From positions 1 to 64,000 of the forward strand of contig JAIXQS010000144.1 in NCBI GenBank assembly GCA_027485615.1: 64,000 nucleotides of DNA, in the 5' to 3' direction. The translations under genes and the position numbers were made by a program. The stretch comes from Verrucomicrobiaceae bacterium. GTDB taxonomy: Bacteria > Verrucomicrobiota > Verrucomicrobiia > Verrucomicrobiales > Akkermansiaceae. Of this stretch, positions 22,736-29,180 are shown piece by piece. Below the pieces are notes generated by a model. The model did no database searches, had not been told where the DNA came from, and saw only the letters and a program-made list of their open reading frames with translations. The first letter of the stretch is position 1. Every line of letters starts with the position of its first letter.

Positions 22736-24649
22736 GTGAAGGATTTGCTGCGAGAGGTTTTCGGTTTTGACGCGCTGCGGGCAGGACAGGAGGAGGTGAT
22801 TTCCTCGCTGATGGACGGGCGGTCGGCGCTGGCGGTGTTTCCGACGGGAGGCGGGAAATCCATGTGCTACCAGCTTCCGGCGCTCATGCTGGAAGGGACG
22901 GCGCTGATCGTATCGCCCTTGCTGGCGCTGATGAAAGACCAGGTGGATCGCCTCGCCGCGAAAGGGGTCGCGGCGGCGCGGCTGGACTCGACGCTCAACC
23001 CGGAGGAATACCGAGAGGTTGTCGCGCGGCTGCTGCGGGGCGAGTGGAAGCTGCTCTACGTTTCGCCGGAGAAACTCGGAAACGCGGAGTTCCGCAAGCT
23101 TCTCAAGGGCGTCTCGCTCTCCATGATCGCGGTGGACGAGGCGCATTGCATTTCCGAATGGGGGCACAATTTCCGGCCGGACTACCTGAAGCTCGGAAAG
23201 ATCCGCAAGCAGCTCGGTGTGAAGCGGTTGCTCGCCCTGACGGCCACCGCGACGCCGAAGGTCGAGGCTGACATACGAAAGCGCTTCGGGATCGCGAAGG
23301 CGGATGTGGTGAAGCTGAGCTTCCACCGTCCCAACCTCGATCTGCACATCACGCCATGCAAGGCGGGCGATAGAAAAAATCTTCTGTTAGATCGGCTCGC
23401 GTCGCACGGCACTCCGGCGGTGGTGTATGTCACGCGGCAGGAAACGGCCGAGGAGGTGGCGACGTTTCTTGCGAAAAGCGGCCTTTCCGCGAGGGCGTAT
23501 CATGCCGGGTTGAGATCGGAGCTGAGGCGCGAGATCCAGGAGGAGTTCATGGGCGGCGCGGTGGATACCGTGGTCGCGACGATCGCCTTCGGGATGGGAG
23601 TGGACAAGGCGGACATCCGTGCGGTGATCCATTACAACATGCCGAAAAGCCTGGAAGGATACACACAGGAGATCGGGCGCGCGGGTCGCGACGGCCAGCC
23701 CGCCGTCTGCGAATGGCTGGCCTGCGGCGATGACCGGACGACGCTGGAGAATTTCATTTTCTCCGACACACCCAGCGACCGCGCGGTGCGCAATCTATTG
23801 GAGCGCGTGCTGAAACTCGGGAGGGACTTCGATGTCTCGCTGTATGATCTCGCGACGACCTGCGATATCCGCCAGACGGTCGTTTCCACGATCCTCGCCT
23901 ACCTGGAGATGGACGGAATCATCGAGGCGCGGGGGAGTTTCTTCGACCGCTTCGGGATCAAGCTGCTGCGGCCTTTGGAGCGGCTTCTGGCGGGGCGTCC
24001 CGCAAAGGAGCGGAAAATTCTGGAAGGTGTTTTCGCCGAGCTGGACGCGGAGTGGAAATGGCTGCGCGTGGAGATTTCGGAAACGGCGGAGAGGCTGAAG
24101 GTTCCGGCGGCGGATCTGCGCGATCTCATTTCGGATCTGGAGGCGGCGGGCGATGTCGCTCTGAAAAAATCGAACTGGCGGCAGGCTTATCGGTTGAGAA
24201 AGGAGCCGGGAAATTTGCGCGAACTCGCGGAGGCGATGGCGGCGGGTTTCAAGAAGCGCGAGGCCTCGGATCTCGCGCGGCTGGAAAAGGTGCTGGCGCT
24301 TTCATCGACCAAGAACTGCCTGACCGGATCGCTGCTTCGGCATTTCGGCGAGAAAATGGACCAAGCCTGCGGGCACTGCGACCGTTGCCGGGGGATCGCG
24401 CCGACCAGGCTGAAGGTTTCCAAGCCGAGAAAAGTCGCGGCACAAGAGCTGTTAGAGATCCGAGCTTTGGCGGATACGAAACACGCGGCGCTAGGCACGC
24501 CGAGGCAGATGGCGCGTTTCCTCTGCGGGATGTCCAGCCCGGCCTCGATACGGGCGCGTCTTTACCGCCTCGATAAATACGGGATGCTCTCCGACCTGCC
24601 CTTCGGCGAGGTCGAGATGGTGGCGGAAAGTTTTTTCCGCAGCACCTAG
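22736..24649 (+). CDS. recQ: RecQ-family ATP-dependent DNA helicase
   Basis: A 637-residue superfamily-2 helicase starting at GTG 22736. Motifs: GQEEVISSLMDGRSALAVFP with Walker A TGGGKS, DEAH box in VDEAHCISEWGHNFRPDY, LTATATPKVEADI, QEIGRAGRDGQPAV with the arginine finger, and a four-Cys zinc knuckle CGHCDRCRG. A winged-helix region precedes the zinc site. The HRDC domain of classic RecQ is not recognisable; the C-terminus has a different helical region (LGTPRQMARFLCGMSSPASI). The stop TAG shares its CTAG with the convergent gene stop. Confidence 0.93.
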   Translation: MKDLLREVFGFDALRAGQEEVISSLMDGRSALAVFPTGGGKSMCYQLPALMLEGTALIVSPLLALMKDQVDRLAAKGVAAARLDSTLNPEEYREVVARLLRGEWKLLYVSPEKLGNAEFRKLLKGVSLSMIAVDEAHCISEWGHNFRPDYLKLGKIRKQLGVKRLLALTATATPKVEADIRKRFGIAKADVVKLSFHRPNLDLHITPCKAGDRKNLLLDRLASHGTPAVVYVTRQETAEEVATFLAKSGLSARAYHAGLRSELRREIQEEFMGGAVDTVVATIAFGMGVDKADIRAVIHYNMPKSLEGYTQEIGRAGRDGQPAVCEWLACGDDRTTLENFIFSDTPSDRAVRNLLERVLKLGRDFDVSLYDLATTCDIRQTVVSTILAYLEMDGIIEARGSFFDRFGIKLLRPLERLLAGRPAKERKILEGVFAELDAEWKWLRVEISETAERLKVPAADLRDLISDLEAAGDVALKKSNWRQAYRLRKEPGNLRELAEAMAAGFKKREASDLARLEKVLALSSTKNCLTGSLLRHFGEKMDQACGHCDRCRGIAPTRLKVSKPRKVAAQELLEIRALADTKHAALGTPRQMARFLCGMSSPASIRARLYRLDKYGMLSDLPFGEVEMVAESFFRST

Positions 24650-25497
24650 CGCGAGAGTTCGCGGGCGACCAGCATCAAGGTTTCGCGGACACCCGGGGCG
24701 AAGCCGCCATCGGTCTGGACGGCAAGCAGTATATGGCCTTCACGAATGAACTCGATGGGGACGGAGCCTGAGTAAAGTTTCAGGGCGCCATTCCCGAAGC
24801 CCAGGTTGTTGATGACCTGCTTGAGCGCGTCCACTGCGGCGATGTCGGTGGCGCTGACGATCGCGATCTGACGCACGCCGGGCAGGGAGCGGGAGCGCTG
24901 GATGATCTCCTCCTTGGACATCTCCCGATCCACTCCGAAAATGGCGCGGAGTTCTAGTTGCTTGATGTAGAAGGAATCGGAACCGGTCGGTTCTAGCGCG
25001 GAGTGAAGATGTTGTGGAGCCAGAGCCTGGTACTGAGGAGGGTATGCTGGGGGAGCCATCGCGGACTCGATTTGCGCCCATCCACCATATGAACCGGGGT
25101 GAACCGGATAGGGCGAAGGGGCGGCGGAATGATGTTCCACTGTAAAAGGGGAAAACGGCGCAGGCTGTTGGGATTGGGAGGCGGGCTCGAAGGGATTAGC
25201 CCTAGCCACCAGCGAAGGCGCTTCAAATCCGAAACCCTGAGGCTCCGCGATATGGAAAGGGGTTTCGGCCTGCTTCCGGAGGCCGGGGAGCCGCATTGTT
25301 TTCGGATCCTCTTGGTCGTCGCTCATGCTTGCTACGGAGAACGGCGATTCCCTGCGCGATTCGACGGGGTTCGCAGCGGTAAACGGGCTTTGCGCAAACC
25401 CCTCCGACGCGACTCCGAATGGAGACAAAGGGTGAGCCACATCGACTGGGGCTGATGGGATGTGATAGGCTTCGAATATACCTCTTGGCGCGCTCAT
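24646..25497 (-). CDS. Protein with SPF-motif repeats and a roadblock-like C-terminus
   Basis: A 283-residue protein of unknown function. The first 170 residues are disordered and contain at least six degenerate units of the form S/T-P-F-x-V/I/A: LSPFGVAS, QSPFTAAN, ESPFSVAS, ETPFHIAE, FSPFTVEH and PSPYPVHP. The last 100 residues (ELRAIFGVDREMSKEEIIQR, SRSLPGVRQIAIVSATDI, FIREGHILLAVQTDGG) look like a Roadblock/LC7-type fold by their GV-x-x-x-x-IVS and AVQTDGG spacing; this is an impression only. It shares a stop-codon CTAG with recQ. The likely role is a scaffold or small-GTPase-type adaptor, by analogy. Confidence 0.5.
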   Translation of the reverse strand: MSAPRGIFEAYHIPSAPVDVAHPLSPFGVASEGFAQSPFTAANPVESRRESPFSVASMSDDQEDPKTMRLPGLRKQAETPFHIAEPQGFGFEAPSLVARANPFEPASQSQQPAPFSPFTVEHHSAAPSPYPVHPGSYGGWAQIESAMAPPAYPPQYQALAPQHLHSALEPTGSDSFYIKQLELRAIFGVDREMSKEEIIQRSRSLPGVRQIAIVSATDIAAVDALKQVINNLGFGNGALKLYSGSVPIEFIREGHILLAVQTDGGFAPGVRETLMLVARELSR

Positions 25498-26278: not shown

Positions 26279-26902
26279 GTGAAAGGAAAACAGGCGGTGA
26301 TCTTGAAAGGCTTGGCGGTGCTGGCGCTGGTTTGGGCGTTGGTGTTCGCGGTCCGCTCTTTCGCTTCGTCGAAAAAAATCACCGCCGAACTGATCGACCG
26401 CGAGATTCGGGAGATGAAATTCGAGGACTGGTCGGAGAATCCAGGAGACGGGGCAGTGGCGACGGAGCGCGAAGAGGAAGTCCGCCGGATCGCGGATATG
26501 GTGAACCGGCTCGATTTCGCGGAGCGCGAGAAGAATCGCGATAACCGCTCGGGAGAGGGTTTTTTCCGCAAGCTCAGCGCAAAGGAAAAGAATTTGTTCG
26601 TCGACCTGACCATCGTGGAATCGATGAGCCGCTTCATGGAGGCGCTCGACCAGATGCCGGAGGCGCAGCGGAAAAGTTTCGTGGAGAAGGGCTTGAAGGA
26701 AATCCAGCAAGGCCGCACGGAGGAGGAGATGGCACGCGCCAGGGAAATGGATGAGACCTTGCTGACGAAAATCAGCGAGGAAGGCATGCGCGCCTATTTC
26801 GACAAGGCCAGCGCCGACACGAAGCTCGACCTCGCGCCGCTGATGGAGGCGATGAACGAGGTCATGCAAGGACTCAGGGGCAATGAATTCGGGCCGCGAT
26901 GA
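26279..26902 (+). CDS. Membrane-anchored protein of unknown function, operon with pseudopilin
   Basis: A 207-residue protein starting at GTG 26279. One N-terminal transmembrane helix (VILKGLAVLALVWALVFAV) is followed by an acidic, helical, charge-rich body (EIREMKFEDWSENPGD, REEEVRRIADMVNRLDFAER, FVEKGLKEIQQGRTEEEMAR) that could form coiled coils. I recognise no family. It overlaps the pseudopilin gene by 4 bp (ATGA), making it the first gene of a four-gene operon with an ABC transporter. Confidence 0.6.
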   Translation: MKGKQAVILKGLAVLALVWALVFAVRSFASSKKITAELIDREIREMKFEDWSENPGDGAVATEREEEVRRIADMVNRLDFAEREKNRDNRSGEGFFRKLSAKEKNLFVDLTIVESMSRFMEALDQMPEAQRKSFVEKGLKEIQQGRTEEEMARAREMDETLLTKISEEGMRAYFDKASADTKLDLAPLMEAMNEVMQGLRGNEFGPR

Positions 26903-27432
26903 GAAAGCCATCCCGCACCAACCGAGGCTTCACGCTCACTGAGCTGCTCATCGTTATCGCGATCATCGCCACGCTGGTCGGCATCGCGGTGCCGGTGAGC
27001 ATATCGATGGTTGCCAAAAGCCGCGAGACCGCATGCCTGGGAAACCTCCGGCAAATCGGAGCCGGGCTTCAGGACTACCTTTCGGAGAACAACCAGCGCA
27101 TACCGGTCCTCGCACTGGGCCGGGATGACAAAAGCTCGGAAGAGCCTGTCTTGGAAACGGTGCTGCTGCCTTACTGCGGAGGTGAGGATGTGTTCCGTTG
27201 CCCCGCCGACAAGGAGCAGTTCGCGAAAACCGGCAGCAGCTACAACTGGAACATCACGCAGAACGGGCTGCATGTCACGAAGCTCTCGTTCTTCGGCATC
27301 GAGGACAGGCCGGAACTCATCCCTCTCGTCAGCGACAAGGAAAGCTGGCATCCCGGCGGCACGAATTTCTTGTACGCCGACTCTAGTAGCTCCAACAAGG
27401 CCCGTTTCGCGACGGCAAACAGGAAGGATTGA
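26899..27432 (+). CDS. Prepilin-type protein (pseudopilin, HPGG class)
   Basis: A 177-residue protein with a type IV prepilin leader: RGFTLTELLIVIAIIATLVG (cleavage after Gly, Phe+1, Glu+5). The globular part has the CLGNLRQIGAGLQDYLSEN region, CGGEDVFRCPADK with two Cys, and HPGGTNFLYADSSS near the end, a variant of the H-X9-DG motif where the final Gly is Ser. Such proteins are numerous in Verrucomicrobiota and Planctomycetota. It lies in an operon with a 4-bp overlap upstream and a 1-bp gap to the ABC ATPase gene downstream. Confidence 0.85.
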   Translation: MRKPSRTNRGFTLTELLIVIAIIATLVGIAVPVSISMVAKSRETACLGNLRQIGAGLQDYLSENNQRIPVLALGRDDKSSEEPVLETVLLPYCGGEDVFRCPADKEQFAKTGSSYNWNITQNGLHVTKLSFFGIEDRPELIPLVSDKESWHPGGTNFLYADSSSSNKARFATANRKD

Positions 27433-27433
27433 T

Positions 27434-28330
27434 ATGCTGGAAGCGCGCGGACTCACCAAAGCCTTCGGCGGGAAACCCGCTCTGCGGGACGTCTCTTTCA
27501 AACTGGAAAAAGGCGAAATCTACGGCCTTCTCGGCCACAACGGCGCGGGCAAAAGCACCTCGCTCGGCATCATCCTCGGCATGGTGGCGCCGGACGAGGG
27601 CGAGGTGGAGATCGGGGGAGTTTCGGTGCAGAAAAATCGCGGCCAGGCGCTGCGCAAGGTCGGCGCGATCTTCGAGGCTCCCGCGTTTTATGATTACATG
27701 AGCGGCTGGGAAAACCTCCGCATCCTGATGGGATACTCGGGGGGATTCGATGCGAAGGCGGCGCGGGAAGTCGTCGAGCGCGTCGGGTTGACGAAGCGGA
27801 TCAGCTCGAAGGTGCGCACCTACAGCCACGGCATGCGGCAACGGTTGGCTTTGGCACAAGCGTTGTTGCCGGAGCCGGAATTGCTTCTGTTAGACGAGCC
27901 GACGGACGGCCTCGACCCGGAGGGCATCAAGTGGTTCCGCGATTTCATCCTCCAGCTCCGCGAGGAACGCGGGATGACCGTGCTTTTCAACTCCCACCTC
28001 CTTGCCGAGGTCGAACTGATGTGTGATCGCGTGGCGATCCTGCGCGAGGGGCAGCGTGTTTTTGAGGGTTCGGTTAATAGTTTCCGAGACGGGGTGCCCA
28101 CCTATCAGGTGAGCTTGGAGACATGGGAGAAAGGTTCGGAAATCGTCCGCAGCCTGGGCGGGGAAATCATCGCGCAAGACAAGATCGCGCTGCCTGCGGA
28201 GATCGATCCGGCACAGCTCGTGGAGCGGCTCGTGCAAACAGGCGTGAAAGTCCGTGAGTTCGCCCGCATCCGCCGCTCGCTGGAAGATGTGTATATGGAA
28301 ATCCTGGACGGAAAGGGCAGCCCGAACTGA
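27434..28330 (+). CDS. ABC-2 type transporter ATP-binding protein
   Basis: A 298-residue ATPase from ATG 27434. Walker A is GHNGAGKS, the signature is YSHGMRQRLALAQA, and Walker B is LLLLDEPTDGLDP. The C-terminal 80 residues form a CcmA/DUF4162-like extension (SLGGEIIAQDKIALPAEIDP). It pairs with the permease that starts one base after its stop. The substrate is not evident; such pairs export lipids, drugs or small proteins, or act in gliding and cell-surface assembly. Confidence 0.93.
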   Translation: MLEARGLTKAFGGKPALRDVSFKLEKGEIYGLLGHNGAGKSTSLGIILGMVAPDEGEVEIGGVSVQKNRGQALRKVGAIFEAPAFYDYMSGWENLRILMGYSGGFDAKAAREVVERVGLTKRISSKVRTYSHGMRQRLALAQALLPEPELLLLDEPTDGLDPEGIKWFRDFILQLREERGMTVLFNSHLLAEVELMCDRVAILREGQRVFEGSVNSFRDGVPTYQVSLETWEKGSEIVRSLGGEIIAQDKIALPAEIDPAQLVERLVQTGVKVREFARIRRSLEDVYMEILDGKGSPN

Positions 28331-28331
28331 C

Positions 28332-29180
28332 ATGATCTTTCTCCAGCAACTCGGGGGCGAGCTCCGCAAGCTGTTCGCAAGGCCGCGGACGTGGATGGGA
28401 TACGGGGCGTTTCTGATCATGGAAGTGGTGATCCTCCTGGTTTACAAGCTGGAGAGGAGCCAGCAGCACATGCGCGGGCTGGTGGAGAGGAACGGGCTGG
28501 AGTTCGGAACCTACTACAGCTCGCTGACGATCACTTTCACCATCATGCTGCTGAGCATGTTCCTGCTGGGCTCGATCTATTTCGCGCTGGTGGCGGGGGA
28601 TATCGTCGCGAAGGAAAACGAGGACGGGAACCTGCGCATGGTCTTCGCGCGCCCGATCACCCGGCTACGGCTGCTGCTGGTGAAATATACGGCTGTCTGC
28701 CTCTACACGTTCAGCTTCGTTTTTTTTGTGGGCGTCAGCGGATACGCCATGGCCGTGGCGGCGGTAGGCTGGGAGGGAGGGCTGTTCGTGATGGAGCCCA
28801 AAATGAAGGTCTTCGCCGCGTATCCGGATTGGTGGGAGGGCGCAAGCAGGCTGGCACTCTCAGCGGGCGGCATCGGAATCAGCATGATCACGCTGTCATC
28901 GATCGCATTCATGTTCTCCTGTTTTAAAATCAAACCGGCCGCCGCGACAATCATCACGCTGACCATCCTTTTCGTGGACATGATCCTGCAGGGCTTTCCG
29001 TTCTTCAAACCCTACGAGAGCTACTTTGTCACCTGGCGGATGAGCGCATGGGTCTTTTTCATGGAGCAGCAAATTTCATGGCCGAAAATGATCGAAAGCT
29101 ATGCGTTCCTGTTAGGACTGAACGCGACGCTGTTCATCATCGGCTGGCTCGCGTTCCAGACGCGGGATTTCAAGACCTAA
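28332..29180 (+). CDS. ABC-2 type transporter permease
   Basis: A 282-residue membrane protein with about six helices (GYGAFLIMEVVILLVYKL, TITFTIMLLSMFLLGSIYFA, VSGYAMAVAAVGW, AGGIGISMITLSSIAFMFSC, AATIITLTILFVDMILQG, NATLFIIGWLAF). The phrase DIVAKENEDGNLRMVFARPI is the cytoplasmic loop typical of ABC-2/ABC-2_2 permeases. It is the last gene of the operon that begins with the unknown membrane protein at 26279. Confidence 0.9.
   Translation: MIFLQQLGGELRKLFARPRTWMGYGAFLIMEVVILLVYKLERSQQHMRGLVERNGLEFGTYYSSLTITFTIMLLSMFLLGSIYFALVAGDIVAKENEDGNLRMVFARPITRLRLLLVKYTAVCLYTFSFVFFVGVSGYAMAVAAVGWEGGLFVMEPKMKVFAAYPDWWEGASRLALSAGGIGISMITLSSIAFMFSCFKIKPAAATIITLTILFVDMILQGFPFFKPYESYFVTWRMSAWVFFMEQQISWPKMIESYAFLLGLNATLFIIGWLAFQTRDFKT

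Follow-up and report, generated by a model that had tools for sequence, protein, structure and literature searches.

We analysed a 64,000-nucleotide stretch of DNA (the window) from a Verrucomicrobiaceae bacterium, and studied within it an operon of four genes at 26279-29180. It comprises an open reading frame here called ORF1, a pilin gene and genes for an ATP-binding cassette (ABC) ATPase and permease.

26279-26902, forward strand: ORF1, GTG start, 207 amino acids (from the translation)
26899-27432, forward strand: pilin of the H-X9-DG/DUF1559 group, 177 amino acids (from the translation and curated models)
27434-28330, forward strand: ABC ATPase, DrrA/NosF-like (from PF00005 and motifs)
28332-29180, forward strand: ABC-2 type permease, 282 amino acids (from PF12730 and PF12679)

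ORF1 and the pilin gene overlap by 4 bp, and gaps of 1 bp separate the pilin from the ATPase and the ATPase from the permease. A preliminary description of this DNA had proposed four tightly packed genes joining an anchor protein, a prepilin-like protein and an ABC-2 pair, and both the spacing and the family models bear this out. The four-gene system is genuine and conserved in Verrucomicrobiota. No description of the operon was found in the literature searched, a search that left most subscription papers outside.

ORF1 represents an undescribed protein family, and it marks the operon. The window copy had no Pfam or NCBIfam match above cut-off, and Pfam matches among 69 homologues were weak and scattered only, the best being FUSC (E 1.5e-5). 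A relation to FUSC was rejected as helical noise (17.6 bits against a cut-off of 30.9; E <=0.01 in 18 of the 69). Modelled with AlphaFold2 from an alignment of 69 ORF1 sequences, the protein is predicted to have a single N-terminal transmembrane helix followed by an all-helical domain (ten helices; predicted local distance difference test score, pLDDT, 85.8). A Foldseek search of this model against the PDB returned nothing at E <=0.001, the best match being a designed helical repeat at E 0.13. The charge flanking the transmembrane helix averaged +2.6 before it and +2.1 after it, favouring an N-in orientation in 31 of 69 rows and the reverse in 14, with the rest tied. Charge around the helix does not settle on which side of the membrane the predicted domain would lie.

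The pilin carries an N-terminal class III signal with Glu at +5, and two conserved Cys. It passed the cut-offs of PF07963 (N_methyl; 30.7 bits against 21.2), TIGR02532, TIGR04294 (H-X9-DG; 22.7 bits against 19) and, barely, PF07596 (DUF1559; 24.0 bits against 23.3). The window copy has H-X9-D-S instead of D-G, and 60 of 131 pilins in the alignment have G in that column; because the TIGR04294 model still passes, we filed the protein as a degenerate H-X9-DG member. Of these 131 pilins, 126 retain Glu+5 and 124 have Gly or Ala at -1. One homologue (L187:7609-8134) is split between two frames, owing either to mutation or to an assembly error. The AlphaFold2 model, built from 72 pilin sequences (pLDDT 93.6), predicts a long N-terminal helix (13-63) and a small globular head. 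Foldseek found nothing significant for this model. In a second look with VIA-align against 40 chains, the Thermus type IV pilin PilA4 ranked first with a middling Z of 6.8 (root-mean-square deviation 3.0, 114 aligned), and the remaining listed rows were pilins or a pseudopilus model. Assignment to the GspG pseudopilins of type II secretion systems (TIGR01710) was rejected at 27.8 bits against a cut-off of 88.85. The term pseudopilin, used in the preliminary description, thus names one possibility, with a type IV pilin ranked first by structure.

The ATPase scored 112.7 bits with PF00005 (cut-off 25, E 2.7e-32). Its Walker A, signature-like and Walker B motifs are intact (GHNGAGKST at residue 34, SHGMRQR at 131 and LLLLDEPTDGLD at 150, respectively). 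It remained under the cut-offs of DrrA1-3_C (21.7 bits) and of the daunorubicin-resistance DrrA model TIGR01188 (195 bits against 312.45). ABCA transporters were its best solved relatives, with NosF (7o0y, E 2.3e-44) among the closest bacterial ones. The permease was over the cut-offs of PF12730 (39.5 bits against 27) and PF12679 (34.8 bits), and an alignment of 38 orthologues held 23 invariant columns. With an ABC_tran ATPase whose motifs are intact and an ABC-2 membrane domain, the pair is, as judged from sequence, an ABC-2 exporter.

Conservation of gene order was checked in two collections. Scanning genome contigs with an ORF1 alignment gave 77 named loci, 76 of which bear Verrucomicrobia lineage labels (Luteolibacter, Haloferula, Verrucomicrobium, Akkermansiaceae metagenome-assembled genomes (MAGs) and others). 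The contig of L119 is titled Pelagibacteraceae yet has a Verrucomicrobiales-type locus, and is probably a mislabelled MAG. The pilin lies directly after ORF1 in all 77 loci and the ATPase comes next in 74 (73 complete, and L187 truncated by the contig end); in L138 the contig ends first, and L191 and L192 have no ATPase. The permease follows the ATPase within 100 bp in 49 of 73 loci and after 214-4502 bp in five, and was not seen in 19 (one at a contig end). The order is thus not unique to this genome. Because the loci were collected by an ORF1 search, they cannot reveal where ORF1 is missing.

At class level the ORF1 profile matched 86 of 335 genomes, or 85 after a 20-bit match (G237) was dropped, and 60 loci were fetched from 58 of these 85. 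The order ORF1-pilin-ATPase-permease was found in 50 of the 60; in two of these, some 1.1 kb of additional sequence separates pilin and ATPase. The others comprised two loci without the pilin, two in which the ATPase is not followed by a permease (one where the fetched stretch ends), five with ORF1 and pilin only (one near a contig end) and one with ORF1 only (G346). In G346, and in one of the five (G059), pilin, ATPase and permease are grouped elsewhere in the genome. No flanking family recurs in more than six of the 60 loci, a count that rests on guessed orientation, such that a few class-level rows may be mis-oriented. Since the order recurs class-wide, beyond chance, while the flanking genes turn over, the four-gene block is held together. 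A phylum-wide sample gave ORF1 matches in 21 of 337 genomes, and the one outside the class (G484) also has the four genes in order. The 77 loci and the G-numbered genomes overlap in part (L121 = G032, L189 = G053, L192 = G318) and are therefore not independent.

The pairing of pilin and exporter noted in the preliminary description is a stable feature and no accident of a single genome, as judged from this order and from co-occurrence in the 335 class genomes. ORF1 and the permease occurred together in 82, ORF1 alone in three, the permease alone in two and neither in 248. The pilin subfamily, present in 78 genomes, was never found without ORF1 (0/78) and was accompanied by the permease in 75; one of the three genomes without permease is 76% complete. 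Among the 85 ORF1-positive genomes, 82 had the permease and 78 the pilin. These tallies left out the G237 match, 51 genomes whose permease matches were all weak (E no better than 9e-26) and eight whose best pilin match fell in the paralogue range (2e-35 to 7e-31); the counts and their Fisher P values ignore shared ancestry. Of 59 close relatives, for part of which wider stretches were fetched, 29 had all three (ORF1, pilin and permease), 20 had none, seven had ORF1 and permease without pilin and three had the permease alone. The three genes were jointly absent in 9 of 37 same-genus genomes, three of these less than 80% complete, and they co-occur also when unlinked (e.g. G004, G012, G013, G022 and G039).

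Of the four genes, that for the permease most often separates from the operon. Nine fetched relatives hold ORF1 and pilin with the permease apart (G004, G008, G012, G013, G020, G022, G029, G032 and G039), and in eight of them ORF1-pilin keeps the ATPase. ATPase-permease without ORF1 was found in G018, G028, G040, G119 and G216. The pilin is absent from G017, G025 and G035, where ORF1 lies directly before ATPase-permease. Compared at like permease identity to the window (81-84%), ORF1 of these three genomes is 35-55% identical to the window copy, against 61-68% in pilin-bearing G008, G009, G020, G029 and G031. Five genomes of another family (G043, G047, G050, G056 and G319) keep ORF1 without the pilin subfamily; in G043, G047 and G050 it sits right behind MurJ, with ATPase, permease and PanC elsewhere. 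ORF1 and the ABC pair thus look like the core and the pilin like their usual companion, because the pilin can be lost while ORF1 and the ABC genes stay.

Several individual loci showed further rearrangements. In one genus from which the pilin is gone, MurJ-ORF1 is found in L076, L080 and L082 and the ABC locus in L077, L081 and L083; two small proteins (c13 and c15) precede the ATPase in the latter three, and the L083 copies have no Pfam match. In L079 (G056) the permease sits with PanC, and no ATPase of the operon's family precedes it at the threshold used. A resistance-nodulation-division (RND)-type pump and a second gene lie behind the ATPase on the opposite strand in L118 (5522-9754), L119 (9053-13588) and L121 (9106-13455). 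Pfam places this pair in the AcrB family and HlyD type in L119, and L118 and L121 carry homologues; the L119 permease lies about 4.5 kb downstream of the ATPase. The ORF1-pilin unit is present in two or three divergent copies per assembly in L085/L086 (G002), L202/L236 (G083), L225/L243 (G224) and L120/L138/L142 (one MAG), reflecting duplication or mixed bins.

In the window the operon is flanked on both sides by genes on the opposite strand, a deformylase upstream and succinyl-CoA ligase subunits downstream; RecQ and a Pfam-less protein are also close. A 283-amino-acid protein without Pfam match (24646-25497) adjoins the deformylase, and its homologues adjoin the same gene in L089 and L090. 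A promoter scan of the locus found no promoter-like site, and a terminator scan gave 5 terminator-like sites against 3.0 (standard deviation 1.5) in shuffles. Elsewhere in the order, MurJ (lipid II flippase) lies within 400 bp upstream of the operon in 11 of the 77 loci, and in part of the order the block sits after Sua5-MurJ and before PanC-NadB. The complete arrangement Sua5-MurJ-ORF1-pilin-ATPase-permease-PanC-NadB is seen in two Verrucomicrobium strains (L186 and L189, with L073 the same contig as L189). As most loci are without it, we read this context as an inherited neighbourhood.

In the window, the operon is not part of a pilus-machinery locus. Models for prepilin peptidase, PF00437 (T2SSE) and secretin matched the genome once, five times and three times, respectively, always on other contigs, and 55 of the 59 relatives likewise had a prepilin-peptidase match. 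The pilin could therefore be processed and assembled by standard machinery. This bears on the suggestion in the preliminary description of a different export or surface assembly system: the pairing behind it is real and conserved, but separateness from type II and type IV machines does not follow, given these matches and a myxobacterial precedent discussed below. The conserved order suggests a little-known machine that builds or exports something at the cell surface.

We tentatively favour a reading in which ORF1 and the ABC pair act on the pilin. The four genes would encode one inner-membrane machine, in which ATPase and permease, whose families are recognised by sequence, may form an ABC-2 transporter with ORF1 as a membrane-anchored helical partner and the pilin as usual client. 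The ABC-ORF1 complex would use ATP to translocate, extract or mature the pilin (we infer the direction of transport), and cleavage by prepilin peptidase would accompany this handling. Assembly of the pilin could then take place on a type II/IV-like platform whose genes lie elsewhere in the genome, a manner of working that might resemble the role proposed for Myxococcus PilGHI with PilA. This reading is supported by the pilin adjoining ORF1 in every named locus, by the four-gene order in 50 of 60 class loci and by a pilin subfamily never found without ORF1. It is also supported by the ATPase staying with ORF1-pilin in eight of nine split relatives and by the greater divergence of ORF1 where the pilin is gone. 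Retention of Glu+5 and of Gly or Ala at -1, the peptidase in most relatives and the PilGHI precedent likewise argue for it.

Several observations weigh against this reading. A client role for the pilin is unproven because some genomes keep ORF1 and the ABC genes after losing the pilin: ORF1 and permease occur without the pilin subfamily in 7 of 85 ORF1-positive class genomes and 7 of 59 relatives, and the permease without either in 2 of 84 class genomes and 3 of 59 relatives. The pilin is thus not the sole client everywhere, unless another pilin substitutes. In G039 the ATPase moved with the permease and left ORF1-pilin behind, and the near-complete G175 and G318 keep ORF1-pilin without a permease match. 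The genome carries 20 N_methyl matches, and around the other 19 pilins (11 stretches, some shortened by contig ends) the models of the operon's ATPase and permease matched nothing adjoining; the lone exception was an ATPase match of 30 bits, partial and some 2.4 kb distant. For the four proteins, partial distance correlations, which share the guessed orientation noted above, were positive in six of six tests (r 0.22 to 0.43); with all six positive they are not specific to ORF1-pilin and are uninformative on interacting partners.

In a somewhat unlikely alternative, the ABC-2 transporter would deliver a lipid, a glycan or a small peptide into the periplasm, with ORF1 and the pilin as accessories. 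ORF1 would receive or gate the substrate, and the pilin would be a short pseudopilus-like element carrying or sensing it at the surface. Small hydrophobic molecules and polymers are common export substrates of ABC-2 permeases. Similarity of the ATPase to DrrA and to ABCA lipid transporters, the pilin-less class genomes and the MurJ genes upstream of some loci are all consistent with this alternative. Against it, the flanks hold no conserved gene for making a substrate, with no family exceeding 6 of 60 loci, and the ATPase of split relatives nearly always stays with the pilin rather than the permease.

NosDFY, made up of the NosF ATPase, a permease of the ABC-2 type and a partner protein, is a case of ATP-driven mechanical coupling without transport. 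The operon similarly has a NosF-like ATPase, an ABC-2 type permease and a partner, and its ABC pair might move ORF1 and so reshape a client in the envelope, the pilin being one of several such clients. We consider this quite unlikely. The rank of NosF among solved relatives, the predicted anchored and helical nature of ORF1 and its position as a hub (of 85 ORF1-positive class genomes, 82 have the permease and 78 the pilin) fit such coupling. However, NosD is a beta-helix protein whereas ORF1 is predicted to be all-helical, and its helix charge leaves the side of the domain unsettled. As a further difference from NosDFY, no nitrous oxide reductase gene was found among the operon neighbours tested.

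Also quite unlikely, in our view, is a pilin export or surface-assembly route powered by the ABC-2 transporter itself, in which the pilin would be passed outward by ORF1 and the ABC pair to form a filament or surface coat without a PilB/GspE motor. Equally improbable is an operon of convenience, two unrelated modules that happen to be co-transcribed: in 24 of 73 loci the ATPase has no permease within 100 bp, and each module is found without the other (ORF1-pilin in two genomes, ATPase-permease in five), but the order is class-wide while flanks turn over, the genes co-occur even where unlinked and all three are jointly absent from some same-genus genomes.

Large paralogous sets of H-X9-DG/DUF1559 pilins, whose role is obscure, can run to dozens of members in Verrucomicrobiota and Planctomycetes. 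For Verruconatronum, 67 homologues of a single pulG-like pseudopilin are on record (PMC13274419), and for Rhodopirellula 74 DUF1559 genes (PMC2754498). The operon pilin resembles these prepilins (DUF1559/PF07596, TIGR04294) in passing the N_methyl, TIGR04294 and PF07596 cut-offs. It differs in that this one orthologous subfamily is tied to a specific ABC-2 pair and an undescribed protein family, ORF1; nine class-level paralogues that were examined had no such neighbours over a distance of about 3 kb. The operon is thus a defined four-gene target for the role of H-X9-DG pilins and for ABC help in pilin export.

The latter question was opened by PilGHI of Myxococcus xanthus, the closest functional precedent. 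One passage calls PilG, PilH and PilI essential for pilin translocation across the inner membrane (PMC3724824), and pilGHI and pilAGHI deletions described in another indicate that pilG, pilH and pilI adjoin pilA (PMC5544727). A passage of a 2018 study of myxobacterial pili states that experimental data supporting the ABC transport role were not available, and that homology-based hits occurred in almost all bacteria studied (PMC6060248). Compared by description, not by sequence, the two systems are alike in that an ABC ATPase (PilH in Myxococcus) and two partners are encoded next to a pilin, and here the genes of both ATPase and membrane permease adjoin that of the pilin. They differ in that the Verrucomicrobiota operon is not in a pil machinery locus and its pilin is of the H-X9-DG kind. 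Given PilA-PilGHI, the premise that pilins pair only with type II or type IV machines is not strict.

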